Assembly: GCF_000621585.1 (NCBI RefSeq) | Contig: NZ_KK211309.1 | Location: forward strand, 62,001-126,000 | Direction of reading: 5' to 3' | Source of the DNA: [Eubacterium] cellulosolvens LD2006 | Lineage (GTDB): Bacteria; Bacillota; Clostridia; Lachnospirales; Lachnospiraceae | Length of the DNA stretch: 64,000 bases | Part shown: in pieces, positions 25,132-56,072 of the stretch | How positions within the stretch are numbered: position 1 is the stretch's first letter | How the letters are laid out: the number at the start of each line of letters is the position of its first letter | Program-made: the position numbers and the translations under genes | Notes under the pieces: model-generated | What the model was told of the DNA's origin: nothing | The model's input: only the letters and a program-made list of their open reading frames with translations | Database searches by the model: none

Positions 25132-26031
25132 ATGAAGGGCATAATTCTTGCCGGAGGATCCGGCACAAGGCTTTATCCGCTTACGAAAGTTACGTCGAAG
25201 CAGTTACTGCCGATCTATGACAAACCGATGATTTACTATCCGCTTTCCGTTCTCATGAACGCGGGAATACGGGATATTCTGATTATCTCCACACCTGCCG
25301 ACACGCCGAGATTTGAGGAACTGCTTGGAGACGGACATCAGTTTGGAATCCATCTTCAGTACAAGGTGCAGCCGTCTCCGGATGGTCTGGCACAGGCCTT
25401 CATTATCGGTGAGGAATTCATCGGCTCCGATCCGGTGGCAATGATTCTCGGAGACAATATTTTTGCGGGACACGGTCTGAAGAAGAGACTGAAAGCTGCC
25501 GTTGAGAACGCGGAGACGGGAAAGGGTGCCACGGTATTCGGATACTACGTGGATGATCCGGAGAGATTCGGTATCGTTGAATTTGACAAGGATGGAAAAG
25601 CAGTCTCCATCGAGGAGAAGCCGGAACATCCGAAGAGCAATTACTGCGTGACTGGTCTTTACTTCTACGACAACCGCGTCGTAAACTACGCGAAGAACCT
25701 GAAACCGTCGGCCAGAGGCGAGCTTGAGATCACGGATCTGAACCGGATTTATCTCGAGGACAACAGCCTGAATGTAGAACTTCTCGGACAGGGATTCACC
25801 TGGCTTGACACAGGAACACACGAGAGTCTGGTGGACGCGACCAACTTTGTGAAGATCGAGGAGCAGCATCAGCACCGCAAGATCGCATGCCTCGAGGAGA
25901 TCGCCTATCTGAACGGATGGATCTCAAAAGAGGACATCATGAAGCTTTATGAAGAAGTGAAGAAGAATCAGTACGGTCAGTATCTGATGGATGTTATCCA
26001 GGGAAAATACGTGGATGTGCTTCACGGCTGA
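25132..26031 (+). CDS. rmlA: Glucose-1-phosphate thymidylyltransferase
   Basis: First enzyme of dTDP-sugar synthesis: dTTP plus glucose-1-phosphate gives dTDP-glucose. The nucleotide-binding motif [11 protein letters not shown] is at residues 8-18, followed by [26 protein letters not shown] carries the metal-binding Asp. [12 protein letters not shown] and [10 protein letters not shown] are typical of RmlA. The length of 299 is normal. It opens the rmlA-B-D run; rmlC is 6.6 kb downstream. Confidence 0.97.
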
Positions 26032-26170: not shown

Positions 26171-27202
26171 ATGAATATTATCGTAACAGGCGGAGCAGGA
26201 TTTATCGGAAGCAATTTCGTTTTCTATGAGTTAAAGGCACATCCGGAAGACAGAATCATCTGTGTGGACAGCCTCACATACGCAGGAAACCTCTCCACGC
26301 TGGATCCGGTTATGAATCATCCGAATTTCAGATTTGTAAAGCTTGATATCTGCGACCGCGAAGGTGTATACAAGCTGTTCGAGGAGGAGAAGCCGGACAT
26401 CGTGGCAAACTTTGCGGCCGAGTCTCACGTAGACCGCTCCATCGAGAATCCGACGGTTTTCCTGAATACAAATATTATCGGAACTTCTGTTTTGATGGAT
26501 GCCTGCAGAAAGTATGGTATCAAGAGATACCATCAGGTATCTACGGATGAGGTTTACGGAGATCTTCCGCTTGACCGCCCGGACCTGTTCTTCCATGAGG
26601 ATACACCGATCCACACATCCAGCCCGTACAGCACATCCAAGGCTTCCGCGGATCTTCTGGTGAACGCGTACCACAGAACTTACGGCCTTCCGGTTTCGAT
26701 CAGCCGCTGTTCCAATAACTACGGACCTTACCAGTTCCCGGAGAAACTGATCCCGCTTATGATCGCGAACGCGCTTGCAGACAAGCCGCTTCCGGTTTAC
26801 GGCGAGGGACTGAATGTCCGCGACTGGCTGTACGTAGAGGATCACTGCAAGGCCATTGACCTGATCATGCGTCAGGGAACTGTCGGCGAGGTTTATAACA
26901 TCGGCGGACACAACGAGATGAAGAACATCGATATCGTCAAACTGATCTGTGACTACCTTGACAAGCCGTACAGCCTGATCGAGCATGTGACAGACCGGAA
27001 AGGCCATGACAGAAGATACGCGATCGATCCGACAAAGATCCACGGAGAGCTCGGCTGGCTGCCGGAGACCATGTTCAAAGACGGAATCAAGATGACGATT
27101 CAGTGGTATCTTGACAATAAGAGCTGGTGGGAGAACATCATCAGCGGTGAATATCAGAACTATTACAAAGAGATGTACGGAAAGAAAAAAGTTCTCGACT
27201 GA
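26171..27202 (+). CDS. rmlB: dTDP-glucose 4,6-dehydratase
   Basis: An NAD-dependent short-chain dehydrogenase-type enzyme that turns dTDP-glucose into dTDP-4-keto-6-deoxyglucose. GGAGFIGSNF is the NAD site, STDEVYGDLP the active-site Thr/Asp/Glu region, and YSTSKASADLL the YxxxK catalytic pair. The 343-residue length is usual. An AAAGGAG ribosome site precedes it. Its product is the branch point used by RmlC/RmlD here and, potentially, by the WecE-like aminotransferase at 46290. Confidence 0.97.
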   Translation: MNIIVTGGAGFIGSNFVFYELKAHPEDRIICVDSLTYAGNLSTLDPVMNHPNFRFVKLDICDREGVYKLFEEEKPDIVANFAAESHVDRSIENPTVFLNTNIIGTSVLMDACRKYGIKRYHQVSTDEVYGDLPLDRPDLFFHEDTPIHTSSPYSTSKASADLLVNAYHRTYGLPVSISRCSNNYGPYQFPEKLIPLMIANALADKPLPVYGEGLNVRDWLYVEDHCKAIDLIMRQGTVGEVYNIGGHNEMKNIDIVKLICDYLDKPYSLIEHVTDRKGHDRRYAIDPTKIHGELGWLPETMFKDGIKMTIQWYLDNKSWWENIISGEYQNYYKEMYGKKKVLD

Positions 27203-30304: not shown

Positions 30305-31179
30305 GAAAAAAAAGTTGGAGAAGGAAGGCACTTCTGCTGGCAGGGGTGCTGATGGGAACCGCAGTACTGTCCGCCTGTCAGAGTGTTGAGGGCGGATCGG
30401 CGGTGAGAGAGGAGCAGACAGTTGGTGACGCGGGCTTCCGGCAGGATCCGCCGCAACACTGGTCGAAACAGGAACTGCGTGATACTGTTCTGATCTGTCT
30501 TGTGAGACATGGACAGACGGTGGCGAACGCGGAGGAAATTCTGGCTGACGGAAGTATGGACTCCCCGCTCACGGATCAGGGAAAGGCGGAAGCTCTCCGA
30601 ATGGGAAAAGCGCTGGCTGAGGATGATTTCCGATTCGACTTCTGCTACGCGAGCGGTCTCGGCAGAGCGATGCGGACGGCGGGACTGATTCTGAAAGGCG
30701 ATCAGGACGAGTCCGTACACGCCCAGGCAAAGCACGGCCTCAACGATGTGCTGCTCGGAAAAGCTGCAGGCCGCAGACAGGAGGAAGTTCTGAAAGAATT
30801 CGGAGAGAACGCCATTGCCGAATATACGTATTCGGTTCCGGGGGACGGGTTTGAATCGCCGCTGGGAGCGGAAGACAAACTTCACTTTGTCCGGAGATTT
30901 GACCGTGCGATGACGGAGGTGGCAGAAGAATCTCTCGAAAAAATGAGAATACAGGGGATTGCTTCAAATCGCGGTCCGCAGGTGCTGGTGGCCGCGCATT
31001 CGTCGGCTGCGTTCTGGCTGTCGTGGAAATTTCCGTCCTCGGGGGTGACGAATCTGGACAATGTCAGCGCAACCGTACTTCTGTACCGGAACGGCCAGTG
31101 GTATCTCAGATATGTCAACGAGCTGGATTACGACAATCTGGCATCAAAACTTACGGAGTTGTGGAAGAGTAATATATGA
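30301..31179 (+). CDS. Histidine-phosphatase-family lipoprotein
   Basis: A 292-residue predicted lipoprotein: a basic N-terminus, a hydrophobic stretch, and the lipobox VLSAC near residue 26. The phosphoglycerate-mutase-like domain has LVRHGQTVANAEEIL with the phosphoacceptor His, SPLTDQGKAEALRMG, and the second catalytic His in VLVAAHSSAAF. It would therefore act outside the membrane, which is unusual for this mostly cytosolic family. The substrate is unknown; a phosphorylated glycan or lipid intermediate is conceivable given its place between glycosyltransferase and wall-enzyme genes. Four-base overlaps join it to both neighbours. Confidence 0.85.
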   Translation: MRKKSWRRKALLLAGVLMGTAVLSACQSVEGGSAVREEQTVGDAGFRQDPPQHWSKQELRDTVLICLVRHGQTVANAEEILADGSMDSPLTDQGKAEALRMGKALAEDDFRFDFCYASGLGRAMRTAGLILKGDQDESVHAQAKHGLNDVLLGKAAGRRQEEVLKEFGENAIAEYTYSVPGDGFESPLGAEDKLHFVRRFDRAMTEVAEESLEKMRIQGIASNRGPQVLVAAHSSAAFWLSWKFPSSGVTNLDNVSATVLLYRNGQWYLRYVNELDYDNLASKLTELWKSNI

Positions 31180-32621
31180 AGAGAAGGGTTATCTTTTTTG
31201 CAGGGGTGTTGCTTGCGGGGCTGCTTGCCGGCGCGGGCATGACGCGCTTTGTCACCGGTTTCGGTGAGGCGAACGGCGCAAAAAAAGCCGGAAGAGACGG
31301 GCTTACCTCGTCGGTGTCGGAGGAACTGCTTTCCGGGTCTTCGGAAGATTTCGGGGATGAGATGGTTGTTCCGGCGCCTGAGAGTATACAGGTGTTCCGG
31401 TTGGGCTTTCCGGCGAACGGCGCGCATTTTTTTACCGCGGATCGGCGGGAAAAAGAACAGCTGGAAGAACAGGGATGGTCATATGAGGGAATCGCCTTTG
31501 AGGCACCCACGGAATCTGCTGTTCCTGTACAGAGGATGACGAACCCGGCAGACGGCAGTGTCCGTTACCTGGCGGATCTGAATCTGGTGAATGAGTTGAC
31601 GACCGGCGGGTGGCAGAGCGAGGGCGTGGCCTGGTATTCCGACGAGGAGATGCGGGTGCCTGTCTATGCTGTCAGCCTTGGGGAGTCGTTTCACTACACG
31701 ACGAGTCAGGAGGAGGCGCAGGTGCTGGTTGCGCAGGGCTGGACGGATGGAGGAATCGCCTGGTACGCGAAGGACGCGGGCGGCGGTGTCTCCGATACGA
31801 ATACGGACATGGATACGCGGACGACGCTCATGGGCGTGGATTTTTCGGACGTGTATAATTATTCCTACGTCAACCGGACCTATGCGGCAGCGGGCCCGTA
31901 CAGCGGAGACGAATTCCGGACGCTGATCTACTATATATCCGTGGAACTTCCGCAGGGGCACGCCGGGAAAGAAGGCGTGACAGACGAACAGATTGCCGCC
32001 GCTCAGGCGAAGCTTCCTGCAGAGGGACTGATGAGACTTGGCCCTGCGGGGATGAATGAGGTTGACGGCGTCTGGTATCTCTTCGACGAGAGGGGGATCT
32101 GGACCAATCACCTGGCAGGGCAGACGTTGGATGACTCCATGAATGACCGGCAGCAGGCTCTGGTTCAGACCTGTATCGAGACGCCGTCTCCGGGTCCCGG
32201 AATGTGCGCGATGTATGTCTCCCAGGTGTGGGCGGCGCTCGGATATGAGTATCCGTATGGAGACGCGGTGGATATGTACAACAACTGGTGCAACGCGGGG
32301 GATTATGCCTCGCTGAAAGTAGGAATGATCGTCGCGGTCGCCACGCATCCGCACTCAGAAGCCGGCCGCCAGTACGGACACATTGGATTCTATGTCGGAA
32401 ACAAACACGTGATGGATAACGTCGGCGTGATCCGGACAGTGGACTTAAGTTCCTGGCTGGAATACTACGGCCCGACGTCCGCGCCGAAATGGGGCTGGAC
32501 GTCCAACATCTCTCTTACGGACGATGCTGCTCCTTCGGATCAGGAGAGCGGCGGTGATGCTGAGATTCCGGAGCAGGTATCTTCCGGCGGGGCGGACGTG
32601 CCGGATCAGACACTTGAATAA
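31176..32621 (+). CDS. Secreted DUF5648-repeat protein with a CHAP/NlpC-like domain
   Basis: A 481-residue exported protein with a signal anchor at 1-25. Residues 72-205 contain three diverged DUF5648 repeats: FPANGAHFFTADRREKEQL, a weak middle copy with RYLADLNLVNEL, and SFHYTTSQEEAQVLVAQGW. A middle segment begins GVDFSDVYNYSYVN, recalling a motif of the L,D-transpeptidase protein at 44250. The C-terminal part has a Cys at about 347 (GMCAMYVSQVWAALG) and a His at about 402 (YGHIGFYVGNKHVMDN), the layout of CHAP or NlpC/P60 cysteine peptidoglycan hydrolases. I infer a secreted amidase or endopeptidase. A low-complexity Ser/Gly/Asp/Glu tail ends the protein. It is translationally coupled to the phosphatase gene. 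Confidence 0.8.
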   Translation: MKRRVIFFAGVLLAGLLAGAGMTRFVTGFGEANGAKKAGRDGLTSSVSEELLSGSSEDFGDEMVVPAPESIQVFRLGFPANGAHFFTADRREKEQLEEQGWSYEGIAFEAPTESAVPVQRMTNPADGSVRYLADLNLVNELTTGGWQSEGVAWYSDEEMRVPVYAVSLGESFHYTTSQEEAQVLVAQGWTDGGIAWYAKDAGGGVSDTNTDMDTRTTLMGVDFSDVYNYSYVNRTYAAAGPYSGDEFRTLIYYISVELPQGHAGKEGVTDEQIAAAQAKLPAEGLMRLGPAGMNEVDGVWYLFDERGIWTNHLAGQTLDDSMNDRQQALVQTCIETPSPGPGMCAMYVSQVWAALGYEYPYGDAVDMYNNWCNAGDYASLKVGMIVAVATHPHSEAGRQYGHIGFYVGNKHVMDNVGVIRTVDLSSWLEYYGPTSAPKWGWTSNISLTDDAAPSDQESGGDAEIPEQVSSGGADVPDQTLE

Positions 32622-44249: not shown

Positions 44250-46097
44250 ATGAGAGTAGAGAGAGTAAGGATTCTCACTGTCGGCCGGCAGCTGAGGCTG
44301 TTGCTGATCACGCTGGTGACGATCTGCGTCGTTCTGTTCTTAGGTCTCGTCAATGTTTTCGCTTCGGACGATCCGGGGATGCTTGCGGATCCGCCCACGG
44401 GTGAGAGTGTCGTGGATTCGGCTGTGATGGAAGATGTTCCAGAGGGCATCCCGTCGGAAGAAGCTGTGACGGACAATGCGGAACAGTTTCCGGAGGAAAA
44501 GGGATCTTTAACACCGGCGCCTTCCGGGAATGTCCGGACGGAGGACGGGCTGCCGTCTGAGATTGTTGCGGAGAGCGAAACGCCTGTCGGCGGCGACAGC
44601 GACGCTGGGGAAGTAACGGACGGAAAAGATGCGCCGGCTGCTGCTGGCGAAGATGGTCAGACAGAGATGGAGGAACCCGGCAAAGGCGGGGAGGCTGACA
44701 TGGACTCTGTTCAGAAGAAAACGGTGACCGTGATTCTGTACCGTATGTATCATCCGGGCACGGGCGAGCATTTCTATACCACAGGGGTGAATGAAAGAAA
44801 TCAGCTCGCAATGATCGGATGGAAGTATGAGGGAATTGCCTGGACTTCCCCGGAGATCTCAGAGACACCGGTCTACCGGTTGTACAGTCCGGTTCTTCGC
44901 GATCATCATTATACGATCAGTGAGCATGAGAGAGACGTTTTGGTTTCAAGAGGCTGGAGATACGAGGGAATCGGCTGGTATTCCGATGACAATAAGGAGA
45001 CAGCCATCTATCGACAGTTTGATCCGAAGCGCCTGCAGGGGTCGCATGTCTTCACAGTGGAAAAAAGCGAGGTCAAAGGACTCGGAAAAAAAGGATGGAT
45101 CGATGAGGGAATCGCATGGTACGGCATTCTCGATCCGGATCCGGAAATTCTCTATCCGATGACGATTGCCGACGGTGTGGATTATGCGAAGGTTTACGAC
45201 TACGAGTATTACAAAACGCATAATCCGGACGTCGTGGCGGTTTACGGCAATAACGACGGTCTGATTCTGAATCACTTTGTGACCAGCGGAACAAAGGAAC
45301 TTCGCAGCGGCAACGGTGTTTTCGAAGCCAGATCCTACATCTATGAATACAGAGATCTCCGAAGAGTATTCAAGGATGATTACAGAAAATACTATGCGCA
45401 TTACAGCAAAACAGGCTACAAGGAGAACAGACATCAGAGTGGCTGCACTTCTCTTCAGAATCCGGATTACCGTTACGCGGGCGTGGATTTTTCGCCGATC
45501 TTTGACTATAACTACTACGTGAGTCACTATCCGTCAGTCGTGAAGAGGGTAGGTTTTACGGATTACACGCTCGTCGAGTATTTCGCAAAGAACGGGCTGA
45601 AGAAATCGCAGCAGGCAAAGGCGTCGTATAACAAAAAGGTCTATACGAAGATCAAAGACCACTTCTATCCGCCGCACGATGCCATGTATTACACGGCTCA
45701 GCCGTTTTCCAGCGCCACGAACTGGCTGATCCTCGTCAACAGGGGATCGCGGACTGTACAGCTGTATACCGGTTCCAGAAACAACTGGACGGAAAACAGG
45801 AAAATCGTCTGTGATGTCGGCGCTGCCGCGACACCGACGATTACCGGAGAGTACGCGCTTGGAGCAAAGATGCTCTACTTCATGACCGGTGATTGCAGAT
45901 GCTGGTATGCATCACAGATTTCGGGGGGCTACCTTTTCCACTCCGTCATTTATGACGGACAGAGCAGCCCGGTGAATATTGTTGACGGAACGCTCGGTCA
46001 GGCGGTATCCCACGGATGTGTCCGCATGGATATCAAAGACGCGAAGTATATCTACAACAACGTTCCATCCGGAACAAAGATTTATATCTACAACTGA
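44250..46097 (+). CDS. Secreted L,D-transpeptidase (YkuD) with DUF5648 repeats
   Basis: A 615-residue exported protein. A signal anchor lies near residues 12-36. An acidic Pro/Glu/Gly/Asp-rich linker follows to about 155. Three DUF5648 repeats occupy 165-300 (YRMYHPGTGEHFYTTGVNER and later copies). Two copies of a second repeat follow: VYDYEYYKTHNPDVVAVYG with HFVTSGTKELRSG, and IFDYNYYVSHYPSVVKRVG with YFAKNGLKKSQQ. The catalytic domain runs from 475 to the end, with YALGAKMLYFM and SHGCVRM at 587-593 carrying the nucleophilic Cys. It would form 3-3 peptidoglycan cross-links or attach proteins to the wall outside the cell. Confidence 0.92.
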   Translation: MRVERVRILTVGRQLRLLLITLVTICVVLFLGLVNVFASDDPGMLADPPTGESVVDSAVMEDVPEGIPSEEAVTDNAEQFPEEKGSLTPAPSGNVRTEDGLPSEIVAESETPVGGDSDAGEVTDGKDAPAAAGEDGQTEMEEPGKGGEADMDSVQKKTVTVILYRMYHPGTGEHFYTTGVNERNQLAMIGWKYEGIAWTSPEISETPVYRLYSPVLRDHHYTISEHERDVLVSRGWRYEGIGWYSDDNKETAIYRQFDPKRLQGSHVFTVEKSEVKGLGKKGWIDEGIAWYGILDPDPEILYPMTIADGVDYAKVYDYEYYKTHNPDVVAVYGNNDGLILNHFVTSGTKELRSGNGVFEARSYIYEYRDLRRVFKDDYRKYYAHYSKTGYKENRHQSGCTSLQNPDYRYAGVDFSPIFDYNYYVSHYPSVVKRVGFTDYTLVEYFAKNGLKKSQQAKASYNKKVYTKIKDHFYPPHDAMYYTAQPFSSATNWLILVNRGSRTVQLYTGSRNNWTENRKIVCDVGAAATPTITGEYALGAKMLYFMTGDCRCWYASQISGGYLFHSVIYDGQSSPVNIVDGTLGQAVSHGCVRMDIKDAKYIYNNVPSGTKIYIYN

Positions 46098-46180: not shown

Positions 46181-46209
46181 TTGAAATAACAGGGAGCGGA
46201 CGGTATAAT
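46181..46209 (+). promoter_or_regulatory. Promoter of the aminotransferase operon
   Basis: TTGAAA and a perfect TATAAT with 17-base spacing, 80 bases before the start at 46290. Confidence 0.8.
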
Positions 46210-46289: not shown

Positions 46290-47441
46290 GTGCGAGATAT
46301 GATCGATTTCAATGTTCCGCCGTTTACCGGCAAAGAATATGAGTACATGCGCATGGCTGTTGAGTCGCACAAGATCAGCGGAGACGGGCAGTTTACGAAG
46401 AAGTGCAGCAGATGGATGGAGGAGCGTTTCCGCGCGAAAAGAGTGTATTTGACGACGAGCGGAACGACGGCGCTGGATATGGCGGCGCTGCTCTGTGATA
46501 TCAAGCCCGGTGATGAGGTGATTCTTCCGAGCTACACATTTTCGAGCACGGCGACGGCCCCGGTGCTCTGCGGCGCAAAACTGGTTTTTGTCGATATCCG
46601 GCCGGACACGATGAACATCGATGAGAAGAAGATCGAGGCGGCGATCACAGATCGCACGAGAGCGATTTTTGCCGTTCACTACGCCGGTGTTGCGGCGGAG
46701 ATGGATGAGATTATGGAGATTGCGCACAGACACCATCTTCTTGTTGTGGAGGATGCTGCGCAGGGCGTCATGAGTACATATAAGGGAAGAGCGCTCGGCA
46801 CGATCGGTGACTTCGGCTGTTATTCCTTCCATGAGACAAAGAATTATTCAATGGGAGAGGGCGGAGCCATCGTCATCAACAACGAGGCGTATAACGAGAG
46901 AGCGGAAATCCTCCGGGAAAAAGGAACCGACCGTTCCCGCTTTTTCCGCGGACAGGTGGACAAATATACCTGGGTGGATTTCGGAGACAGCTATCTGCCG
47001 AGCGAACTGAACGCCGCTTATCTCTGGGCCCAGCTGGAAAAAGCGGATGAGATCTATGACGACAGAATGCATACCTGGGAGTGCTATGACAGAGCCTTCC
47101 GCCCGCTGGAGTCAGAGGGGCTGGTGGGACTTCCGGTCATCCCGGACTACGACGTGCACAACGCGCACATGTATTATCTGAAATTCCGCAACCTGGAGCA
47201 GAGAACGGAGTTCATTGCTTTTATGAAGGAACGAGGCGTCCAGACGCCGTTCCATTATGTGCCGCTTCACTCCGCGCCCGCCGGAGAACGTTTCGGACGT
47301 TTTCACGGTGTCGATCGCTGCACGACCTCCGAGAGTGAGAGACTTGTCCGCCTGCCTCTGTATTACGCAATGAAGGCGGAGGACAGGGATGCTGTGATCC
47401 GTGCTGTCCTGGCGTACTTCGAAGCCGATGGAAAAATCTGA
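46290..47441 (+). CDS. rffA: dTDP-4-amino-4,6-dideoxygalactose transaminase-like protein
   Basis: A DegT/DnrJ/EryC1 family PLP aminotransferase of 383 residues, very close in motif content to E. coli WecE/RffA: FNVPPFTGKEYEYM at the start, GDEVILPSYTFSSTA, VEDAAQGVMSTYKGRALGTI, and the PLP lysine in SFHETKNYS. WecE uses glutamate to aminate dTDP-4-keto-6-deoxyglucose, giving dTDP-4-amino-4,6-dideoxygalactose. The keto sugar is available from RmlA/RmlB of this window. It heads a run with two small membrane proteins and faces three convergent genes that may use its product. The product stereochemistry is not certain from sequence. Confidence 0.88.
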   Translation: MRDMIDFNVPPFTGKEYEYMRMAVESHKISGDGQFTKKCSRWMEERFRAKRVYLTTSGTTALDMAALLCDIKPGDEVILPSYTFSSTATAPVLCGAKLVFVDIRPDTMNIDEKKIEAAITDRTRAIFAVHYAGVAAEMDEIMEIAHRHHLLVVEDAAQGVMSTYKGRALGTIGDFGCYSFHETKNYSMGEGGAIVINNEAYNERAEILREKGTDRSRFFRGQVDKYTWVDFGDSYLPSELNAAYLWAQLEKADEIYDDRMHTWECYDRAFRPLESEGLVGLPVIPDYDVHNAHMYYLKFRNLEQRTEFIAFMKERGVQTPFHYVPLHSAPAGERFGRFHGVDRCTTSESERLVRLPLYYAMKAEDRDAVIRAVLAYFEADGKI

Positions 47442-47472: not shown

Positions 47473-47853
47473 ATGGAAACAGAAAAGAAAAACGCGACAA
47501 ACAGAATCGGCTGGATTCTGTTTCTGCATCTGGCACTTCTGATTTACGCGAGCTGCAGCATCTTCAGCAAGCTGGCTTCCCGGCAGGAATTCATGAGCGT
47601 GAAGTTCATTCTGTTCTACGCGGGAGTGATTTTTGTTCTGGGCGTGTATGCCGTTCTCTGGCAGCAGGTCATCAAACACATGCCGGTGACGACGGCCTAC
47701 GCCAACAAGGCGGTGACGATCGGCTGGGGAATTGTCCTTGGACACTTTGTCTTTCACGAGAGCGTGAGCGCGCGCCAGATTCTGGCGGCTGTGATGATTG
47801 TCATCGGCGCGGTACTCTATGTAATTGCGGACGGGGAGGCGGAGGAGAAATGA
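47473..47853 (+). CDS. Small EamA/SMR-family membrane protein, ArnE/F-like subunit 1
   Basis: A 126-residue protein with four predicted helices (WILFLHLALLIYASCSIFS, FYAGVIFVLGVYAVLW, KAVTIGWGIVLGHFVF, ILAAVMIVIGAVLYVI). HESVSARQILAAVMIVIGA resembles the closing segment of SMR and ArnE/ArnF proteins. An ATGA overlap joins it to a second protein of the same type, as expected for a heterodimer. ArnE/F flip an undecaprenyl-phosphate-linked amino sugar; the neighbouring aminotransferase and polyprenyl glycosyltransferase suggest a similar task here. Drug export of the SMR kind is the alternative. Confidence 0.75.
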   Translation: METEKKNATNRIGWILFLHLALLIYASCSIFSKLASRQEFMSVKFILFYAGVIFVLGVYAVLWQQVIKHMPVTTAYANKAVTIGWGIVLGHFVFHESVSARQILAAVMIVIGAVLYVIADGEAEEK

Positions 47854-48197
47854 ATACATCGATGATCCCGTACATTCTGATCTATCTGGCGGGGGTGTTT
47901 TTTTCGAGTCTCTCCCAGATTCTGTTAAAGAAAGAGGCAAATAAGGAACACGGCAGTTTCCTTCAGGAATATCTGAATCCCCGTGTGATCGTCGCCTACG
48001 GAATCTTTTTCGGATGCACGTTTCTGACGATGCTTGCCTACAAAGGAATTCCGATGAACTGGGGGCCTGTGCTGGAGACGGCCGGTTACATCTTCGTGAC
48101 CGTTCTCGGCGTGACGATCCTCAAAGAAAAAATAACATGGAAGAAGTTCCTTGCGCTGTGCGTGATTCTGGCTGGAATTCTTCTGTATGCTCTGTAA
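47850..48197 (+). CDS. Small EamA/SMR-family membrane protein, ArnE/F-like subunit 2
   Basis: A 115-residue protein starting at the ATG that overlaps the preceding stop, with GGAGGAGA just before it. Four helices are visible: PYILIYLAGVFFSSLSQILL, VIVAYGIFFGCTFLTMLAY, GPVLETAGYIFVTVLGVTIL and FLALCVILAGILLYAL. The LSQILLKKEA segment in helix 1 is typical of SMR-type transporters. It pairs with subunit 1. The longer open frame upstream to 47448 is only a shadow of subunit 1. Confidence 0.75.
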   Translation: MNTSMIPYILIYLAGVFFSSLSQILLKKEANKEHGSFLQEYLNPRVIVAYGIFFGCTFLTMLAYKGIPMNWGPVLETAGYIFVTVLGVTILKEKITWKKFLALCVILAGILLYAL

Positions 48198-48200
48198 AAA

Positions 48201-48246
48201 AAGCACATCATATACCGTTTCGCAGACGGTATATGATGTGCTTTTT
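48201..48246. terminator. Bidirectional terminator between convergent genes
   Basis: AAGCACATCATATACCGT pairs perfectly over 18 bases with ACGGTATATGATGTGCTT around a 7-base loop. A residues precede and T residues follow, so it can serve the plus-strand transporter genes and the minus-strand ATP-grasp operon. Confidence 0.93.
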
Positions 48247-48325: not shown

Positions 48326-49510
48326 TCAGTTCAGGCGGATGCAGGAGAGTACTTCGCCGGCAATACGGGAGGCTGTGGACCGGTCGTCTGTGTGAAGAAT
48401 GATCTGACCGACGCGGTCCGTGCCGTCGTGCACCTGGGGAAGATGATCTCCGACGCCGTAATCGAGAGAAATCTCTGCCCCGGAGGCTGCGGCGATTTCT
48501 CGGATTTTCTCTTCATCCACAGAGACGATGTTTCCGCTGACCGGGCTGAAGAGAAGCCGCGACATACACGGATCCGAGGCGGTCGGTGTGAAGGTGCAGG
48601 GATCTCCCAGGGCACATCGGAGGATCGTCTCATAGTAGTCGATGCCGGTGTGCAGCCGGATCAGTTCCGGAATGCCTGTGGCTCCGCACCGGCCCCCCGC
48701 CTCAAGAATATGGAGTTCATCGCCGTCGATCATGATATCACAGTTGATGGCGCAGTTGTCGGCGCCGGAGGTATCCACGATCTTTTGAAGGGCTGTCTCC
48801 AGCCGCTCGAGTAGAAGCGGAGAACACCGGAAGGGGAAGGCATGGCCGGCAGGGATTGTGATGTTGCCGGCGTGACAGACCTCTTTTCGATGCGGAAGAC
48901 AGAGGCGTACCTTTCCTTTATACACAAAGGCGTCCAGACCGATTTCCGTGCCTGCCGCCACTTTTTCGACGATATAGTGGGTGGTGTGCGAAGCCGCGGC
49001 AGAAGCTTCAAAGGCCGGACGAAGTTCTTCTTCCCGGTGTACCATGGTGATTCCCCGGCTTCCGGATACGTCGCAGGCTTTCATCATCACCGGAAAGCCT
49101 ATTCTCCGGGCGGCGTCAAGGGCCGCTTCGTACGAGTGAACGCCCCGGAAAACGGTGGACGGCACGCCGCCTTTCAGGAACATTTCTTTCATTGCCAGTT
49201 TATCCGTCAGCACCGAGGCGGCCCCGGCGGAGATGCCGCGAAGCTGCAGTGAGTCGCAGACGAGGCCGAGCGTCTGAATGGCCACATCCGTTCCGGTTGT
49301 CGCGATGCCGTCGATCTGAAGCCGCTCGGCCTCCTTAAGGACGGCGGCGGAATCCGTTGTGTCGAGATAACAGACTTCATCGGCGAGAGCAAAACCCGGA
49401 TAGTTTCCCCTGTAGCTGACGACAATGGTGTGCAATCCCATTTCGTTTGCCTTCAGGATCAGGGGCACCTGATAGATGCCGGCGCCCAGAATCATGATTT
49501 TTCGTTTCAT
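48326..49510 (-). CDS. ATP-grasp ligase of unknown substrate
   Basis: A 394-residue ATP-grasp protein. The N-terminal Rossmann-like part has MILGAGIYQVPLILKANEMG. The ATP-grasp fold follows: LTDKLAMKEMFLKGGVPST, FPVMMKACDVSGSRGITMV with the ATP-binding lysine, YIVEKVAAGTEIGLDAF, and the metal-binding LHILEAGGRCGATGIPELI. It is closer in style to carbamoyl-phosphate-synthetase-like and D-Ala-D-Ala-like ligases than to biotin carboxylase. Such enzymes join a carboxylate to an amine. In this cluster a plausible acceptor is the 4-amino group of the sugar made by the aminotransferase, but that is inference. It is last of three minus-strand genes. Confidence 0.85.
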   Translation of the reverse strand: MKRKIMILGAGIYQVPLILKANEMGLHTIVVSYRGNYPGFALADEVCYLDTTDSAAVLKEAERLQIDGIATTGTDVAIQTLGLVCDSLQLRGISAGAASVLTDKLAMKEMFLKGGVPSTVFRGVHSYEAALDAARRIGFPVMMKACDVSGSRGITMVHREEELRPAFEASAAASHTTHYIVEKVAAGTEIGLDAFVYKGKVRLCLPHRKEVCHAGNITIPAGHAFPFRCSPLLLERLETALQKIVDTSGADNCAINCDIMIDGDELHILEAGGRCGATGIPELIRLHTGIDYYETILRCALGDPCTFTPTASDPCMSRLLFSPVSGNIVSVDEEKIREIAAASGAEISLDYGVGDHLPQVHDGTDRVGQIILHTDDRSTASRIAGEVLSCIRLN

Positions 49511-49517
49511 CGTAAAC

Positions 49518-50459
49518 TCAGTCCTCCGTGGTCGTTGTCTCCAGATTTACTGTATCGCGGACGATAAACTGGGGGGTGCGGTTGATCGCGAGAATCAGTT
49601 CACCGATGTATTCTCCGATGATACCAAGCACGAGAAGTGTGAAACCGAAGAATACAAGAATGACGCAGATCAGCGACGGCCAGCCGATCGGGGCGGACGG
49701 ATCGATGAGTTTGCTGACGATGGTGACGACCGTCGCGATAAAGCCGATGATGGCCGTCACGATTCCGACAAAGGATGCGAGACGGAGCGGAACTACGGAG
49801 AAATTCCAGTAGGCCATCCAGAGCTTGAGCATCTTCCGGAAGGTGTAGCCGGAGGCGCCGTACTCTCTCTTGTGATGTTCGATTTCCACGTTTGCGATAT
49901 TGTGCGTCGTCCGAAAAAAGATGCCGTCGACGTAAGGGTTGTTATTGGTGTATTTGATGACCTCTTCTTTAACCTTTGCGGTAATCAGCCAGAAATTGCT
50001 GGACCGGATTTCCTTCGGCCTTCCGAGAAGAATGCGGGAGGAAACTTTGTTGAACCAGCTGGTCAGATTCTTTTTCTTCGAGTTGGTGCTGCTCCGGTAG
50101 ACTCCGTAGACAAGGTCGTAGCCCTCTTCGATTTTTCTGACGAGAACAGGAATCTGCGACGGGTGGGTCTGCAGATCATCGTCCATGCCGAGGATGTAAT
50201 CGCCGGAAGCGTAGTTCATGGCGCACATCAGAGCGGCGTGCTGGCCGAAGTTCCGCATGAGGTTGATTCCTCTGACGTTCGGATAATCTTTTCCGAGTTT
50301 TTGAATTTCCGCAAAGGTTCCGTCTTTGGAGCAGTCATTGACGAGGATAAACTCGCAGTCGTATCCCTGAAGATAGGAAATCTCCTGCATGGTCATCTCC
50401 ACAACTTCGCGGATGGAGCGTTCGGAATTGTAACAGGGTATTACGATTGAAATCAGCAT
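49518..50459 (-). CDS. Polyprenyl-phosphate glycosyltransferase, ArnC/GtrB/DPM1-like
   Basis: A GT2 enzyme of 313 residues with two C-terminal membrane helices. MLISIVIPCYNSERSIREVV opens the fold, EFILVNDCSKDGTFAEI and ILGMDDDLQTHPSQIP give the donor and metal motifs as in ArnC and GtrB, and ASFVGIVTAIIGFIATVV and LICVILVFFGFTLLVLGIIG are the helices. It should load a sugar on polyprenyl phosphate at the inner membrane face. I use the ATG at 50459, at the fold boundary, with CAGGAGAC upstream; the open frame continues to 50585 through Arg/His-rich sequence that is not part of the family. It lies between the ATP-grasp and PLP-enzyme genes. Confidence 0.9.
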   Translation of the reverse strand: MLISIVIPCYNSERSIREVVEMTMQEISYLQGYDCEFILVNDCSKDGTFAEIQKLGKDYPNVRGINLMRNFGQHAALMCAMNYASGDYILGMDDDLQTHPSQIPVLVRKIEEGYDLVYGVYRSSTNSKKKNLTSWFNKVSSRILLGRPKEIRSSNFWLITAKVKEEVIKYTNNNPYVDGIFFRTTHNIANVEIEHHKREYGASGYTFRKMLKLWMAYWNFSVVPLRLASFVGIVTAIIGFIATVVTIVSKLIDPSAPIGWPSLICVILVFFGFTLLVLGIIGEYIGELILAINRTPQFIVRDTVNLETTTTED

Positions 50460-50502
50460 GATGTAAAAGTCTCCTGAGTGATCTGATGGTTGATGGTGGA
50501 AA

Positions 50503-51651
50503 TCACGGGAAGAAGTCTTCCTGTGGAAAAAATGTCTGCGTCTGAATGTATGCTTCCGCGGGGCTTTCCTTTGTTTTTCCCGCAAGGTGATCGAAAAACA
50601 GGGGAAGTCCTCCTGTGTGAAGGAAGAGGATGTTTTCCCCCCGGATGTTGTGATCGGCGAGATACCGGATCATGCCGGCAAAGGCCTTTCCGGTGTAGGT
50701 CGGATCCATGGGGATAGAATTGAGTTTCAGCATCTGTTCGATGGTCTGTTCAATCTCCTCGTTGTATAGTCCGTATCCGCCGCAGTTGTATCCGGTCTCC
50801 AGATGGATGCGCCCGGATTCGCAGATGGGCAGATCGCTGACGGGATCCTGCCTGTGCTCCTTTCGTTCCCGGCGTTCCTCCTGATTGAGGGGATGAGGGA
50901 GCGGAAGTCCGCTTGCGGACACGGTACCTTTCTCTTCGTTCGCCTGGAAAAAACCGCGGATGCGAAGGCCGTCGGTAACGGTATCCTCGAGAATCCGCAG
51001 AGCGCGCTGTTCTGTTCTGGAAGAAATGGAAATACCCGTGAGAGGGCGGAAATCGCCGGCTTCGATCATACCGGCAAGAAATCCTCCCTGTGTACTTCCT
51101 GTTCCGTAGGGGACGACGAACCGGTCGAAACGGATCTTATGGACGCTCTCCCAGTCGGCGATGAGCCGGTAGGCGTCCGCGTAAGCCTGTGCGGCAGTGC
51201 CCTCGTTTCCGGATCCGGTTCTGTCTCCGTAGATATAGTAGGGCGTCATCCCCTCGGCGCGGAGAATGGAGAATGCGCGGTCGACGGTTTCTGCGATCGC
51301 GTTTTTCGGACAGGGGAGGACGCGAACCGGAAACTGTTCAAGAATTTTTGCGTTGAACGGTGTGGTTCCGTCGGCGTGCTCCTCGGTGGCGATCATCAGG
51401 CAGGGAACCGATTCGTCGCTGCACATGTTGGCAAGGACACGGCACAGGTTGGATCGCCTGTCCCCGTACATGATCAGGGCGTCGCAGCCCTTTTTCTTCA
51501 TATCCTGCATAAAGGCGGCCGCAATGCGCACTTTATTTCCTCCGAAGGAATAGGGCAACAGGTCGTCTCTTCTAATATATATGTGATTGTCGCCGGCTTC
51601 CGGCCAGCGGATCTTCTGGATCGGTGTATCCAGCGGCAGATCGTAAAACAT
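50503..51651 (-). CDS. PLP-dependent enzyme, ACC deaminase/D-cysteine desulfhydrase family
   Basis: A 382-residue fold-type II PLP enzyme. RRDDLLPYSFGGNKVR holds the PLP lysine, ALIMYGDRRSNLCRVLA the substrate loop, VVPYGTGSTQGGFLAGM the phosphate-binding glycines, and ILFLHTGGLPLFFD the family's closing motif. About 45 extra polar residues lie between about 245 and 290 (GTVSASGLPLPHPLNQEERR), not present in the usual 330-residue members. Reported activities of the family include deamination of aminocyclopropane carboxylate and desulfhydration of D-cysteine; the substrate here is unknown. Its linkage to an ATP-grasp ligase suggests it could make an unusual amino acid or acid for that ligase. 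Confidence 0.82.
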   Translation of the reverse strand: MFYDLPLDTPIQKIRWPEAGDNHIYIRRDDLLPYSFGGNKVRIAAAFMQDMKKKGCDALIMYGDRRSNLCRVLANMCSDESVPCLMIATEEHADGTTPFNAKILEQFPVRVLPCPKNAIAETVDRAFSILRAEGMTPYYIYGDRTGSGNEGTAAQAYADAYRLIADWESVHKIRFDRFVVPYGTGSTQGGFLAGMIEAGDFRPLTGISISSRTEQRALRILEDTVTDGLRIRGFFQANEEKGTVSASGLPLPHPLNQEERRERKEHRQDPVSDLPICESGRIHLETGYNCGGYGLYNEEIEQTIEQMLKLNSIPMDPTYTGKAFAGMIRYLADHNIRGENILFLHTGGLPLFFDHLAGKTKESPAEAYIQTQTFFPQEDFFP

Positions 51652-51698: not shown

Positions 51699-51727
51699 AT
51701 TTTATGCAAAATCCGATACAGCGTCAA
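51699..51727 (-). promoter_or_regulatory. Promoter of the three-gene minus-strand operon
   Basis: On the minus strand, TTGACG and TAAAAT are separated by 17 bases, 48 bases before the start of the PLP-enzyme gene, which has a GGGAGGGA ribosome site. Confidence 0.75.
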
Positions 51728-51888: not shown

Positions 51889-53634
51889 ATGAAAAAAAGA
51901 ATGCAGCAAATCATCGCTCTTGTCCTGACCGCCGGAATGGCGTTCTCTTCCATGCCGGTTGAAGCAGAGACTTCACAAGGTCGGGCAGACACAGTGATTT
52001 CTGAGGAAAAAGATGAATCAGAAATAAACGGTGCAACAAAAGCCGACGCAACTGCAGTATCAGAAAACGGAATCACATCTGCGGAGGATGTCGGCAGGAG
52101 GATCCAGAAACTTCTCGATGAAGCGAGATCCTTTGGTACGTGCACGGACGGGGAACTGAACCGGGCCCAAAAAGAAATTGAAGAGATCCGTGAAGCTTAC
52201 GGCAGTCTCGAGAGTAAAGAACAGGAGATTTTAAGCGATAGTATCGGGTATCTGGAAGACGCGGAAGCGGCCATCGAGCGGATGCTGGACATCAGCGATC
52301 AGTACAGACGGACCGGTACTGTGAAGCTTGAACAGACCGATCATCCAAGCAGCTTCCGATTTATCAACGGAAAGAAAATCAATGCGGCGCTGAAAGAAGC
52401 CATTCAGGAGACGGCTGCGGTAGCTGCCGAAGAATCCGGAGAGCCGGAGCAGGTGGTCGAGGCTCTGGCAGAAGGAACGCTGGAGGCTTCAGACACGGAA
52501 TATGCGGATACGACGATCGTCACAGATCCGGGTGAGCAGACCGGATTTATGGATGCGGGAGATGGCCCGGTTACCGCGACTGCTGCAGATTCCGAGGAGC
52601 TGGTGGGAACCGCGGGAACCTGCATGGGAATAGATATCAGCGCATGGAATGGAACGCCTGATTTCGACGAGCTCAAGGCTGCCGGGGTGAAGTTTGTAAT
52701 TATCCGGCTGGGATATGGAAATAATGAGCCCAGTCAGGATGACAAGCAGTTCGAGCGGAGTGTCAAGGAGTGTGAGAGAGTGGGAATCCCGTGGGGAGCG
52801 TATATCTACTCCTACGCGATGGATCTCGGTGAGCTGGACAGCGAAGTCGCTCACGCGCAACGACTGCTGGCTGGTAAAAATCCGCAGCTGCCGGTCTATA
52901 TTGATCTTGAGGATCCGTCGCAGGAGAGAGCCCATATCGACGTGGATAAATTCGCGACCAGATTCTGCGTGAAGATGGCAGCGTCCGGCTACAAGACCGG
53001 GTTGTATGCGTCGCTGACATGGTTTGAAGCGTATTTCACACATTATGCGACCATGTCCGGCTTCTCCAACTGGATCGCCCAGTGGTGGAATTCCTGTACC
53101 TACGGCGGCAACTATGATATGTGGCAGTACAGCGCATCAGGAAAAGTCAATGGAATAAAGGGAAATGTGGACATGGACTATTATTACGGAACGATCGGGG
53201 AGCAGGCAGCGGCCAGCGGAAAACCGATGTTTCGTATGTACTGTTCTCTGAACAAAGAACATTTCTACACGAGCAGCATCGCGGAGTGGGAGGCGCTGGT
53301 CGGTTATGGCTGGAAGGCGGAGGGCATCGGCTGGTTCGCACCGAAGAAGTCAGAGACGCCGGTTTACCGGTTGTACAATCCCAGTCTGAAAGACCATCAT
53401 TACACAAAAGATCAAAACGAGCTGGATACGCTCACGAAACAATACGGCTGGATAGATGAAGGCATTGGCTGGTATTCCGATGACAAGGAGACAGTACCCG
53501 TCTACCGCGAATTTCACCCGAAACTCATCTCCGGTTCACACAACTACACGACGGCAAAGAAAGAACACGATTATCTGACCACTGTTGGCTGGGTGGACGA
53601 GAGAATTGCCTGGTACGCGTTGAAGGCAGGGTAA
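51889..53634 (+). CDS. Secreted GH25 lysozyme with DUF5648 repeats
   Basis: A 581-residue exported muramidase. A signal peptide ends near SMPVEAE (about residue 27). Residues 60-160 are largely helical and charged. An Ala/Glu/Thr-rich linker follows to 240. The GH25 domain runs from about 245 to 440, with MGIDISAWNGTPDFDELKAA at its start, FVIIRLGYGN, the catalytic acid motif YIDLED at 337-342 and MWQYSASGKVNGIKGNVDMD at its end. Three DUF5648 repeats close the protein (FRMYCSLNKEHFYTSSIAE, YRLYNPSLKDHHYTKDQNE, YREFHPKLISGSHNYTTAKK). It would cut the N-acetylmuramic acid to N-acetylglucosamine bond in the wall. Confidence 0.93.
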   Translation: MKKRMQQIIALVLTAGMAFSSMPVEAETSQGRADTVISEEKDESEINGATKADATAVSENGITSAEDVGRRIQKLLDEARSFGTCTDGELNRAQKEIEEIREAYGSLESKEQEILSDSIGYLEDAEAAIERMLDISDQYRRTGTVKLEQTDHPSSFRFINGKKINAALKEAIQETAAVAAEESGEPEQVVEALAEGTLEASDTEYADTTIVTDPGEQTGFMDAGDGPVTATAADSEELVGTAGTCMGIDISAWNGTPDFDELKAAGVKFVIIRLGYGNNEPSQDDKQFERSVKECERVGIPWGAYIYSYAMDLGELDSEVAHAQRLLAGKNPQLPVYIDLEDPSQERAHIDVDKFATRFCVKMAASGYKTGLYASLTWFEAYFTHYATMSGFSNWIAQWWNSCTYGGNYDMWQYSASGKVNGIKGNVDMDYYYGTIGEQAAASGKPMFRMYCSLNKEHFYTSSIAEWEALVGYGWKAEGIGWFAPKKSETPVYRLYNPSLKDHHYTKDQNELDTLTKQYGWIDEGIGWYSDDKETVPVYREFHPKLISGSHNYTTAKKEHDYLTTVGWVDERIAWYALKAG

Positions 53635-53990: not shown

Positions 53991-56072
53991 ATGAACAGAA
54001 AAGAAACGGCAGGGAGAAGTCTGCCTGTCTTTGCAGTCATCTGTGTGGTTGTCTTGTTGCTGACGGGGTTATACATTCACTGCGCATCGATGCAGACGGT
54101 AAAACTGGATCTGCGATCCGCCCGCGAAAAAAATCTGATCGCGGGAGAAAACGGCGAATATACCATAGCCGATGGAGCCTACGTGACGAAAAAAGGAGGT
54201 CCGGCGACGCTCACTTTTGATAACGTGAACCGTTATGTGGGCACGATGCGCTTCGATTTCGGAGAAATCACCACGCATGAGCTGATCAATGTGCTGACAC
54301 TTACGGTCTTCTATGACACAGGGCATGGCTTTAAGAAGTATCAGAAGGTAGAGGCGTCCATCAACCCGGGAGAGCATCAGCTCGCGCTTCACCCGCTGGC
54401 AAAGGTGCGGGCGCTGAAGATACAGATCGGCGTGCTCGATAAAGAAAACTTTGTGATCAACGGCATTGTTCTGAATCCGGAAACCTCCGGCTGGCAGCCC
54501 TTTTTCTGGCTGTCACTGGCAGCGGGGATTTTTGTCATCTGTTTTTTGGAAATGCGGAAAAGGGGGAGAAACAGACTCTTTTTTCTGATCGCGTCCGGTT
54601 TGATCGTGTTCTTTTTCGGATATGCACATCTCATGTTTCGGAGAGTGGATAATTCCCTTTACCTTCTTGCGGCGGAAGTTCTGATTCTGACGCTGACGGT
54701 TCTGGTCTATGCGGTGGAAATGGATGCGAAGAAGAGGGACAAGCTGATCCTGTGGACGATGATGGCGACGGCCTTTGCTGTTTTTACATACTGGGCGATG
54801 ATTCTTGACTGGGGCAAGGCGCCGGATGAGCATATGCGCATGAAGATCGTGGAATATGTCAGAATTCACGGGAGCATTCCGCGAGGGGATGACCCGGAAA
54901 TCCGGGATTCATACTGGGGCTTCGGCTATTCCTTTTATCCGGTTACGACACAGGTGATCGCCGCGTGGATCTGCAGGTTCGTGGCTCTCTTTAGCGAAGA
55001 GGGATACGTCATGCTGAAAGCGGCCAGAATGGCGAGCGTTTTCTGTGGTACGGGTACCGTTTACTGGGCGTACCGGATTGGAAGAGAAGCGATGCCGGAT
55101 ACGGACGCGGCCTATCTGCTTCCGGTTCTTACATTTACGCTTCCACAGCTTGCGTTCCTCAATTCTTATCTGAATAACGACAGTCTGGCAATTATGTCCA
55201 TCATGATGATTCTGTATTTCTGGATTCATGGACTGGGAAACGGCTTTTCTGTTCGGACATCCATCGGACTTGCTGTCGGAATCGGCCTCTGTGCTCTGTC
55301 GTACTACAACGCATACGGGGCGATCCTTCTCAGTATTCCGGTGTTTTATTACGGACTCATCCGGCACGGAAGAGGGAAAAAGTACATGGTAATGGCGACA
55401 GCTCTGGTCATTCTCATTGCCTGTCTGATCGCGGGCTGGTGGTTTATCCGCAGTGCGATTTTGTACAACGGGGATTTTCTGGGGCGTTCCACACTTCATA
55501 AAACCCAGGATCTGTACGCGTCCTCTGAGGCGTTGGAAAAGGCCGATGAGACGATGGAGAAACTTGGCGTCAACATCTTCGGAATGCTTCTGATCAAGCA
55601 GCTGCATTATGTCCGGGACGTCGGGATGAGCTTCGTGGGACGCTTTGGCTACATGGAGAATACCCTCAGGCTGTCGCAGTACGCATTGATTCAGCTGATT
55701 ATCTTTATCGGCTCTATGGCGGCGTTTCTGCCGGGGGTATGCCGGGCTGTGCGGTATATCCGCAGAAAAGAGAAGAAGAAAACGGATATAGTGATCCGGG
55801 ATCAGATTTTTTTCGGAACCATGCTGTTTCTGCTGATGGTCATTCCTTTTTCGCTGGCGCTGTACTATACCTGGTCGTCGGATTTTCAGAAACAGGGAAG
55901 ATACTACATGCCGGTCTGCGTGCCGCTCTTCTACATCACAGCGAGAGGTATGGACAATCTGTTGAAAAAAAGAAAATGTGAAAAGAACGGAGCCGGCTAT
56001 CTGCTCAGTCTGCTTCTTCTTCTCAATCTGGTGATGGTTTTTCTCTCGGTCGCCTATCAGTTTTATTACTGA
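53991..56072 (+). CDS. Polytopic GT-C-like membrane protein (DUF2142-type)
   Basis: A 693-residue membrane protein. One helix (about 10-30) is followed by an external beta-rich domain to about 165 (TIADGAYVTKKGGPATLTFD, IKIQIGVL-like strands), then about twelve helices. The loop after the fourth or fifth helix has GKAPDEHMRMKIVEYVRIHG, where an acidic pair in the first outer loop is the hallmark of GT-C glycosyltransferases such as ArnT and protein mannosyltransferases. HKTQDLYASSEALEKADETM is a later outer loop. It would use a polyprenyl-phosphate sugar on the outer face. The nearby polyprenyl glycosyltransferase and small flippase pair could supply that donor. Acceptor unknown. Confidence 0.75.
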   Translation: MNRKETAGRSLPVFAVICVVVLLLTGLYIHCASMQTVKLDLRSAREKNLIAGENGEYTIADGAYVTKKGGPATLTFDNVNRYVGTMRFDFGEITTHELINVLTLTVFYDTGHGFKKYQKVEASINPGEHQLALHPLAKVRALKIQIGVLDKENFVINGIVLNPETSGWQPFFWLSLAAGIFVICFLEMRKRGRNRLFFLIASGLIVFFFGYAHLMFRRVDNSLYLLAAEVLILTLTVLVYAVEMDAKKRDKLILWTMMATAFAVFTYWAMILDWGKAPDEHMRMKIVEYVRIHGSIPRGDDPEIRDSYWGFGYSFYPVTTQVIAAWICRFVALFSEEGYVMLKAARMASVFCGTGTVYWAYRIGREAMPDTDAAYLLPVLTFTLPQLAFLNSYLNNDSLAIMSIMMILYFWIHGLGNGFSVRTSIGLAVGIGLCALSYYNAYGAILLSIPVFYYGLIRHGRGKKYMVMATALVILIACLIAGWWFIRSAILYNGDFLGRSTLHKTQDLYASSEALEKADETMEKLGVNIFGMLLIKQLHYVRDVGMSFVGRFGYMENTLRLSQYALIQLIIFIGSMAAFLPGVCRAVRYIRRKEKKKTDIVIRDQIFFGTMLFLLMVIPFSLALYYTWSSDFQKQGRYYMPVCVPLFYITARGMDNLLKKRKCEKNGAGYLLSLLLLLNLVMVFLSVAYQFYY

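Follow-up and report, generated by a model that had tools for sequence, protein, structure and literature searches.

The Arn pathway for 4-amino-4-deoxyarabinose (Ara4N) uses transport parts like those of a gene cassette that we describe here from [Eubacterium] cellulosolvens LD2006, in a stretch of 64,000 nucleotides (contig NZ_KK211309.1, positions 62,001 to 126,000 of the forward strand) that is called the window below. In Neisseria, PglB2 combines an ATP-grasp domain with a phosphoglycosyltransferase and, in the available excerpts of its description, is credited with the acylation of a 4-amino sugar (PMC11130364); the product is given there as glyceramido-acetamido-trideoxyhexose, a 4-glyceramido sugar made en route to undecaprenol (PMC11130364, PMC6959607). 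In GacI-GacL, and in part in WpsA, a family 2 glycosyltransferase (GT2) acting on undecaprenyl phosphate (Und-P), a flippase and a GT-C transferase decorate a wall rhamnan, according to the excerpted account (PMC10821137). In the window, two convergent operons bring together a WecE-type aminotransferase, two small EamA-type proteins, a pyridoxal phosphate (PLP) enzyme, a GT2 and an ATP-grasp protein. Our preferred reading, to which we assign a probability slightly above one half (roughly 0.55), is that they form one cassette through which a 4-amino sugar destined for a surface polysaccharide is made, acylated and exported.

The three genes of the minus-strand operon (51651-48326) run in the order PLP enzyme, GT2 glycosyltransferase, ATP-grasp protein, at the place and on the strand that an earlier note on this DNA had given for the operon. 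The gaps between them, 43 bases (PLP/GT2) and 7 bases (GT2/ATP-grasp), make it likely that the three are co-transcribed. The earlier note had also placed the operon under a single TTGACG-N17-TAAAAT promoter. That exact sequence is present at 51727-51699, but the 6-kb stretch scanned yields five sites of this kind and its shuffled versions 4.1 +/- 2.1, so that the motif as such is no better than chance and only its position speaks for it. Convergent to this trio, across a terminator-like hairpin, lies the plus-strand operon of WecE and the two small EamA-type proteins. It is on this second operon, outside the coordinates of the earlier note, that the link to an amino sugar rests, and genes for dTDP-rhamnose and for export stand around both operons (Table 1).

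Table 1. Features of the two convergent operons and of associated genes in the window, with scores in bits against model cut-offs
Feature	Position	Strand	Basis
RmlA, glucose-1-phosphate thymidylyltransferase	25132..26031	+	TIGR01207 477 vs 360.65
RmlB, dTDP-glucose 4,6-dehydratase (makes the WecE substrate)	26171..27202	+	TIGR01181 485.7 vs 365.1
Promoter-like site TTGAAA-N17-TATAAT, 5' of wecE	46181..46209	+	site number not above shuffles
WecE-type dTDP-4-amino-4,6-dideoxygalactose transaminase	46290..47441	+	NF008687 614.6 vs 375; TIGR02379 597.4 vs 434.85
Small EamA-type protein 1	47473..47853	+	PF00892 29.7 vs 28.2; ArnE model NF011625 33.5 vs 92
Small EamA-type protein 2	47850..48197	+	PF00892 23.8 vs 28.2; within a longer reading frame
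Terminator-like hairpin between the two operons	48201..48243		20 pairs, followed by T
ATP-grasp protein, 394 aa	48326..49510	-	PF02786 33.7 vs 19.8; PF13535 30.9 vs 27
GT2 glycosyltransferase, 313 aa	49518..50459	-	PF00535 106.4 vs 23.3
PLP enzyme, fold type II, 382 aa	50503..51651	-	PF00291 63.4 vs 35
Promoter-like site TTGACG-N17-TAAAAT, 5' of PLP gene	51699..51727	-	10/12 consensus match
GT-C fold membrane transferase with N-terminal beta domain	53991..56072	+	L016 homologue and model

For the supply of the sugar, family-level scores above curated cut-offs suggest that RmlA and RmlB would provide dTDP-4-keto-6-deoxyglucose, which WecE would aminate to dTDP-4-amino-4,6-dideoxygalactose (dTDP-Fuc4N). 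The products of rmlA, rmlB, rmlD and rmlC all exceed equivalog cut-offs in the window. WecE, whose translation may well begin at the ATG at 46299 instead, matches PDB entry 4piw (E 3.6e-156) and scores 179 vs 631 against ArnB. An ATP-binding protein of teichoic-acid-exporter type in the window falls below cut-off (262.1 and 230.9 bits).

The ATP-grasp protein is probably, judging from its sequence and setting, an N-acyl (aminoacyl) ligase for this 4-amino sugar. Its fold, its context and PglB2 suggest that it would turn a carboxylic acid into an acyl phosphate and then link the acid to the 4-amino group; the most likely acid is an amino acid. Lys104, Lys144, Glu182, Glu270 and Arg274, which we take to be the usual ATP-grasp positions, are invariant in ligase alignments of 22 and of 26 rows, and the position two after the last Glu, presumably Asn in most ATP-grasps, is Gly272 here. 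The LAL_C2 domain (PF18603) scores 28.7 bits against a cut-off of 29.4. Predicted structures cover this protein and the GT-C protein, and the ligase model (pLDDT, the predicted local distance difference score, 94.9) is closest in fold to PDB entry 4dim (VIA Z 43.8). This entry, which is also the closest in sequence (E 3.5e-54), is a protein of Anaerococcus prevotii whose name, 'phosphoribosylglycinamide synthetase', is an annotation. PurT (1eyz, 36.8) and an L-amino acid ligase (3vot, 36.3) follow, a tie in which fold alone cannot separate formylation from aminoacylation. One alternative is therefore that the protein is a PurT-type formate-dependent N-formyltransferase acting on Fuc4N, with the PLP enzyme not directly coupled to it. 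Besides the tie in fold, the match to the PurT model and the Arn-like surroundings fit this idea, and the formyl domain of ArnA formylates Ara4N, which offers a parallel. However, the scores are far under the PurT cut-offs (NF006766, 57.1 against 339; TIGR01142, 51.6 against 502.15), and the PLP/ATP-grasp fusions and PylC-like pairings described below point to an acid that the PLP enzyme could itself form or pick out. We know of no formate product for this PLP family, and we regard formylation as unlikely. Overall, the genomic context favours an acid within reach of the PLP enzyme, whether made or chosen by it.

The earlier note had named the PLP enzyme as a member of the 1-aminocyclopropane-1-carboxylate (ACC) deaminase/D-cysteine desulfhydrase family. 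By score and by residues it falls into neither equivalog, and its sequence marks it as a divergent subfamily of that group. It is below the cut-offs for D-cysteine desulfhydrase (TIGR01275, 109.3 against 289.4; PRK03910, 88.8 against 469) and for ACC deaminase (TIGR01274, 95.6 against 392). In a tree with three more typical family members as outgroup, two of them long branches, the subfamily forms a separate clade with support of 100/100; two of the three outgroup members exceed the family cut-off and the third scores 268.2 against 289.4. The PLP lysine and the two tyrosines of a pair are conserved in 26 of 26 aligned rows. In the numbering of the Salmonella D-cysteine desulfhydrase, the window protein retains equivalents of the PLP lysine, Ser78, Asn79, Tyr261, Tyr287 and Thr315, carries Arg at the Gln77 position and Leu at the His80 position, and has Thr at both the Thr288 and the Thr315 positions. 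Gln at position 77 is found in all three outgroup members and in none of 23 subfamily members. A true D-cysteine desulfhydrase was rejected on the change of Gln77 to Arg and on the scores, and an ACC deaminase on the Thr/Thr pair in place of Glu/Leu (a Leu that we take to be Leu322) and on the TIGR01274 score.

What is described of these relatives in the excerpts available helps to frame the chemistry. In ACC deaminase the places of Thr288 and Thr315 are taken by Glu295 and by a Leu, respectively, while in the Salmonella enzyme Gln77 and Ser78 set specificity and are both required for D-Cys activity, Tyr287 is held to abstract the alpha proton of D substrates, and the lysine side faces the alpha proton of L-Ser (PMC3344862). 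A small amino acid that reacts at its alpha carbon would suit the fold of the window enzyme, which may offer a base on either face, and racemization is possible. Its probable role, as read from sequence and context, is to supply (or edit) the acid or amino acid for the ligase. Were it an editor only, its task would be to break down a D-amino acid that competes for the ligase, leaving the correct one to be used; the relative just described does degrade D-amino acids, and many ligase loci lack the PLP enzyme. We find this unlikely, as the direct fusion of PLP enzyme and ligase favours supply and as the residue needed for D-Cys in Salmonella, Gln77, is the one that the subfamily never has. A more ambitious proposal, which we put forward tentatively and consider improbable as it stands, is that these PLP enzymes are a new fold-type-II branch that makes an unusual or D-amino acid, by racemization or beta-replacement, and hands it directly to the ATP-grasp ligase, giving amide-linked amino acids on surface amino sugars. 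If true, parts of sugar biosynthesis would here have been assembled into an analogue of teichoic acid D-alanylation, in versions that draw on two or more families of ATP-grasp enzymes and on two different lipid carriers.

The comparison with other genomes supports a functional linkage of the PLP enzyme and the ATP-grasp ligase, which the earlier note had proposed to act together. At one locus (L028) an ATP-grasp protein with 36% identity to the window ligase carries the PLP domain as a C-terminal fusion. Three others (L029, L030 and L032) encode two ATP-grasps side by side, one of 33-34% that stands by itself and a more distant one of 29-31% to which the PLP domain is fused. In the tree, all four PLP domains from fusions group in a single clade (100/100). 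Furthermore, searches with the PLP enzyme led to 20 genomes, of which 17 carry an ATP-grasp gene within a few genes, two do not and one is cut by a contig end; here and below, counts of ATP-grasp, PLP, GT2, small-protein and DegT genes use profiles built from the same loci, whose building rows match by construction. These 20 genomes comprise 10, 3, 2 (of five family-search matches) and 5 from successive searches, and L016-L019 were left out because they had been found with the ligase query and would bias the count. The five family-search matches were assigned by identity and tree, two to the subfamily and three to the outgroup; because it did not recover the PLP gene of the window itself at the threshold used, the family search is an undercount. 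The final five genomes were added once the pattern had already been recognized; two of them agree, two disagree and one is not judgeable. A DegT aminotransferase lies inside the fetched stretch in 15 of the 20, and in G186 about 13 kb off on the same contig. The contig start cuts the PLP gene of G1065, where the visible 10 kb has no ATP-grasp. The three more typical family members have neither ATP-grasp (0/3) nor DegT (0/3) within about 9 kb.

In 11 of the 17 genomes the partner is a PylC-like/PRK12767 ATP-grasp (L050-L053, L057-L059, L065, L066, L084 and L088), with PF21360 at 94-135 bits in seven tested and NF009406 at 518.1 and 464.1 against 271 in two tested; the building rows of the PylC-like profile were L050, L051, L052, L057, L058, L065 and L066. 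This ATP-grasp is the next gene in nine of the 11 loci, with one gene between in L051 and an upstream position in L084, and in L059 it is cut by the contig start. Ten of the 11 loci have a DegT aminotransferase and eight a PglC-like phosphoglycosyltransferase. In L058 a GNAT acetyltransferase gene lies before the PLP gene, and in L051 and L057 the two are fused, with the GNAT part N-terminal and C-terminal, respectively. This association bears, indirectly, on the nature of the acyl group, since the capping of a free alpha-amine would lead one to expect it. The group could instead be a non-amino acid, such as lactate, glycerate or a 2-oxo acid that the PLP enzyme produces, in line with the Neisseria glyceramido sugar: PglB2 yields a glyceramido group (PMC11130364, PMC6959607) and the Salmonella D-cysteine desulfhydrase liberates pyruvate, in the excerpts of these reports (PMC3344862). 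Against this stand the GNAT genes or domains with some PylC-type pairs and the fact that PLP substrates are amino acids, and we consider a non-amino acid a possibility of low probability. Separately, L036 (7786-9441, +) encodes a fusion of GNAT and ATP-grasp domains beside a PglC-like transferase and a sugar aminotransferase, an arrangement that resembles the logic of PglB2.

The earlier note had suggested a search for other genomes with the same three-gene unit, and five were found besides the window (L016, L017, L018, L019 and L025, where L016 is a contig of G012 and L025 is G392), all with PLP enzyme, GT2 and ATP-grasp in the same order. When genome contigs were queried with the ligase, four loci of 46-80% identity were obtained and all four have the ordered trio. 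Among 392 genomes of the order, at E <= 1e-40, the ligase is present in 14 (15 loci) and the PLP enzyme in 10; six of the 14 (G000, G209, G364, G383, G392 and G404) have both, provided that one and the same set of 392 genomes underlies the two queries. Fourteen of the 15 ligase loci carry a GT2 from this group (weakly matched in L021 and L035), and 10 each carry the small-protein pair and a DegT aminotransferase within the 12-22 kb examined. The PLP enzyme mostly occurs with an ATP-grasp ligase (17 of 20) and the window-type ligase often without the PLP enzyme (8 of 14), as expected of an optional supplier. The cassette of L029-L032 lies among rml and ABC-export genes, which fits the decoration of a rhamnose-containing polymer.

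Three further observations concern these loci. The trio together with WecE at L017:8020-12489 comes from a metagenome record labelled Olsenella (Actinomycetota), through either horizontal transfer or misbinning. At L033, a locus without the PLP gene, a WbqC-like protein (8534-9232, -; PF08889, 269 bits) lies amid ATP-grasp, GT2, small-protein and WecE genes and is a possible alternative partner. An ArnD-like deformylase was considered for L025 and rejected, as the deacetylase beside the small proteins resembles sporulation PdaA (281.4 bits, cut-off 298).

After the nucleotide sugar has been made, the GT2 would, to judge by its family, transfer it to undecaprenyl phosphate, and acylation may come either before or after this step. 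The sequence of the GT2, for which the ATG at 50459 is preferred as start over an upstream TTG, identifies it as a polyprenyl-phosphate-type glycosyltransferase, ArnC/PgfS/GtrB-like, with ArnC 9bhc and others, then sll0501, as best PDB matches. The earlier note calls it ArnC-like; its score is far under the ArnC cut-off (NF007986, 141.6 against 529) and PgfS scores better (169.2 bits), also below cut-off. The paired small proteins may then flip the lipid-linked sugar. The first is a putative ArnE-like flippase subunit. The second, whose ATG overlaps the stop of the first, was not listed by the ArnE model NF011625, and it has a 96% homologue in L016 at 11273-11620. Finally, a GT-C transferase would place the sugar on the polymer, and perhaps the protein at 53991-56072 is the candidate for this step, as its fold and location suggest. 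No Pfam match was found in this protein itself; its 77% homologue in L016, where the gene adjoins the trio, matches PF13231 PMT_2 (32.6 against 26.1). From about residue 240, its model resembles Pmt1-Pmt2 (6p25; VIA Z 24.6, 395 aligned, root-mean-square deviation 4.1) and ArnT (5ezm; VIA Z 22.2, 309 aligned, deviation 3.6), with a moderate pLDDT of 68.9 that is weak over the first 250 residues, the C-terminus and places between.

Several points weigh against a single cassette of this kind. In the window, a GH25 gene sits between the GT-C gene and the trio operon; in G015 the GT-C gene adjoins wecE and is about 28 kb from the ligase; and L017 and L027 carry a YfhO-type protein instead of the GT-C protein. 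The modelled fold of the ligase, as noted, is equally near PurT and the L-amino acid ligases. The PLP enzyme is absent, at the threshold given, from eight of the 14 ligase genomes. In G911 and G1069, of one genus, the PLP gene has no ATP-grasp or aminotransferase in 12.1 and 9.6 kb respectively, on short contigs, and the trio of G392 has no nearby aminotransferase. The pairing of PLP enzyme and ATP-grasp proposed in the earlier note was not seen in the stretches of G911 and G1069; it is seen in the 17 genomes and also takes the form of fusions, mostly at 4-amino-sugar loci. Its counter-case, a trio split in relatives with no link to aminotransferases, was encountered only in part, in G911 and G1069, in G392 and in the five of 15 ligase loci where no DegT aminotransferase was seen in the 12-22 kb examined. 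Two PLP-subfamily members of one genus (L086:3517-4485, -; L087:9403-10368, -) lie in stretches without ATP-grasp or aminotransferase, both near a protein of 591-595 aa without Pfam matches.

If the proposed cassette is real, the N-acylation of 4-amino sugars would be the step that connects a so far uncharacterised subfamily of PLP enzymes with ATP-grasp families whose role is unclear (PRK12767 and the 4dim kind). It might give Bacillota of this kind a route for putting charged or amino-acid-bearing groups on surface polymers, and such groups would matter for phage receptors, immune recognition and cationic-peptide resistance. The window has other surface features of its own. A 4622-aa surface protein (7012-20880, +) has 24 FctA-type isopeptide stretches (PF12892) and SpaA folds, and DUF5648 (PF18885) is a recurring module common to four proteins (4663-5754, 31176-32621, 44250-46097 and 51889-53634, all +), one with YkuD, one with GH25 and one with CAP.

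In summary, how new the locus is depends on the part considered. In the open-licence PMC literature, no report of this pathway with a PLP partner was found among the matches listed, and no paper on ATP-grasp with bacillosamine. The statement of the earlier note that no pathway with this set had been described thus stands for the full set; for ATP-grasp acylation of a 4-amino sugar, however, PglB2 is a precedent. PglB2 shares with the window ligase, to which we liken it by description, an ATP-grasp domain tied to 4-amino-sugar acylation, but differs in its undecaprenyl diphosphate route, in its fusion to a phosphoglycosyltransferase and in that the available excerpts of its accounts mention no PLP enzyme. 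The Salmonella D-cysteine desulfhydrase differs from the window PLP enzyme, whose subfamily occurs with ligases. With regard to decoration through Und-P, the GT2 is clear in the window, the small proteins score around the EamA cut-off, and the GT-C protein, one gene away, is recognized by its homologue and a moderate model; GacI-GacL and WpsA use a Wzx flippase and GlcNAc where the window would use a small EamA-type pair and an amino sugar. The Arn system is alike in its GT2 of the ArnC group, its paired small EamA-type proteins (ArnE/F) and its GT-C protein with an ArnT-like fold. It differs in that the GT2 and the small proteins of the window fall well short of the ArnC and ArnE cut-offs, in that WecE is not ArnB, in the supply through rml genes, and in the ATP-grasp protein and PLP enzyme that the window adds.

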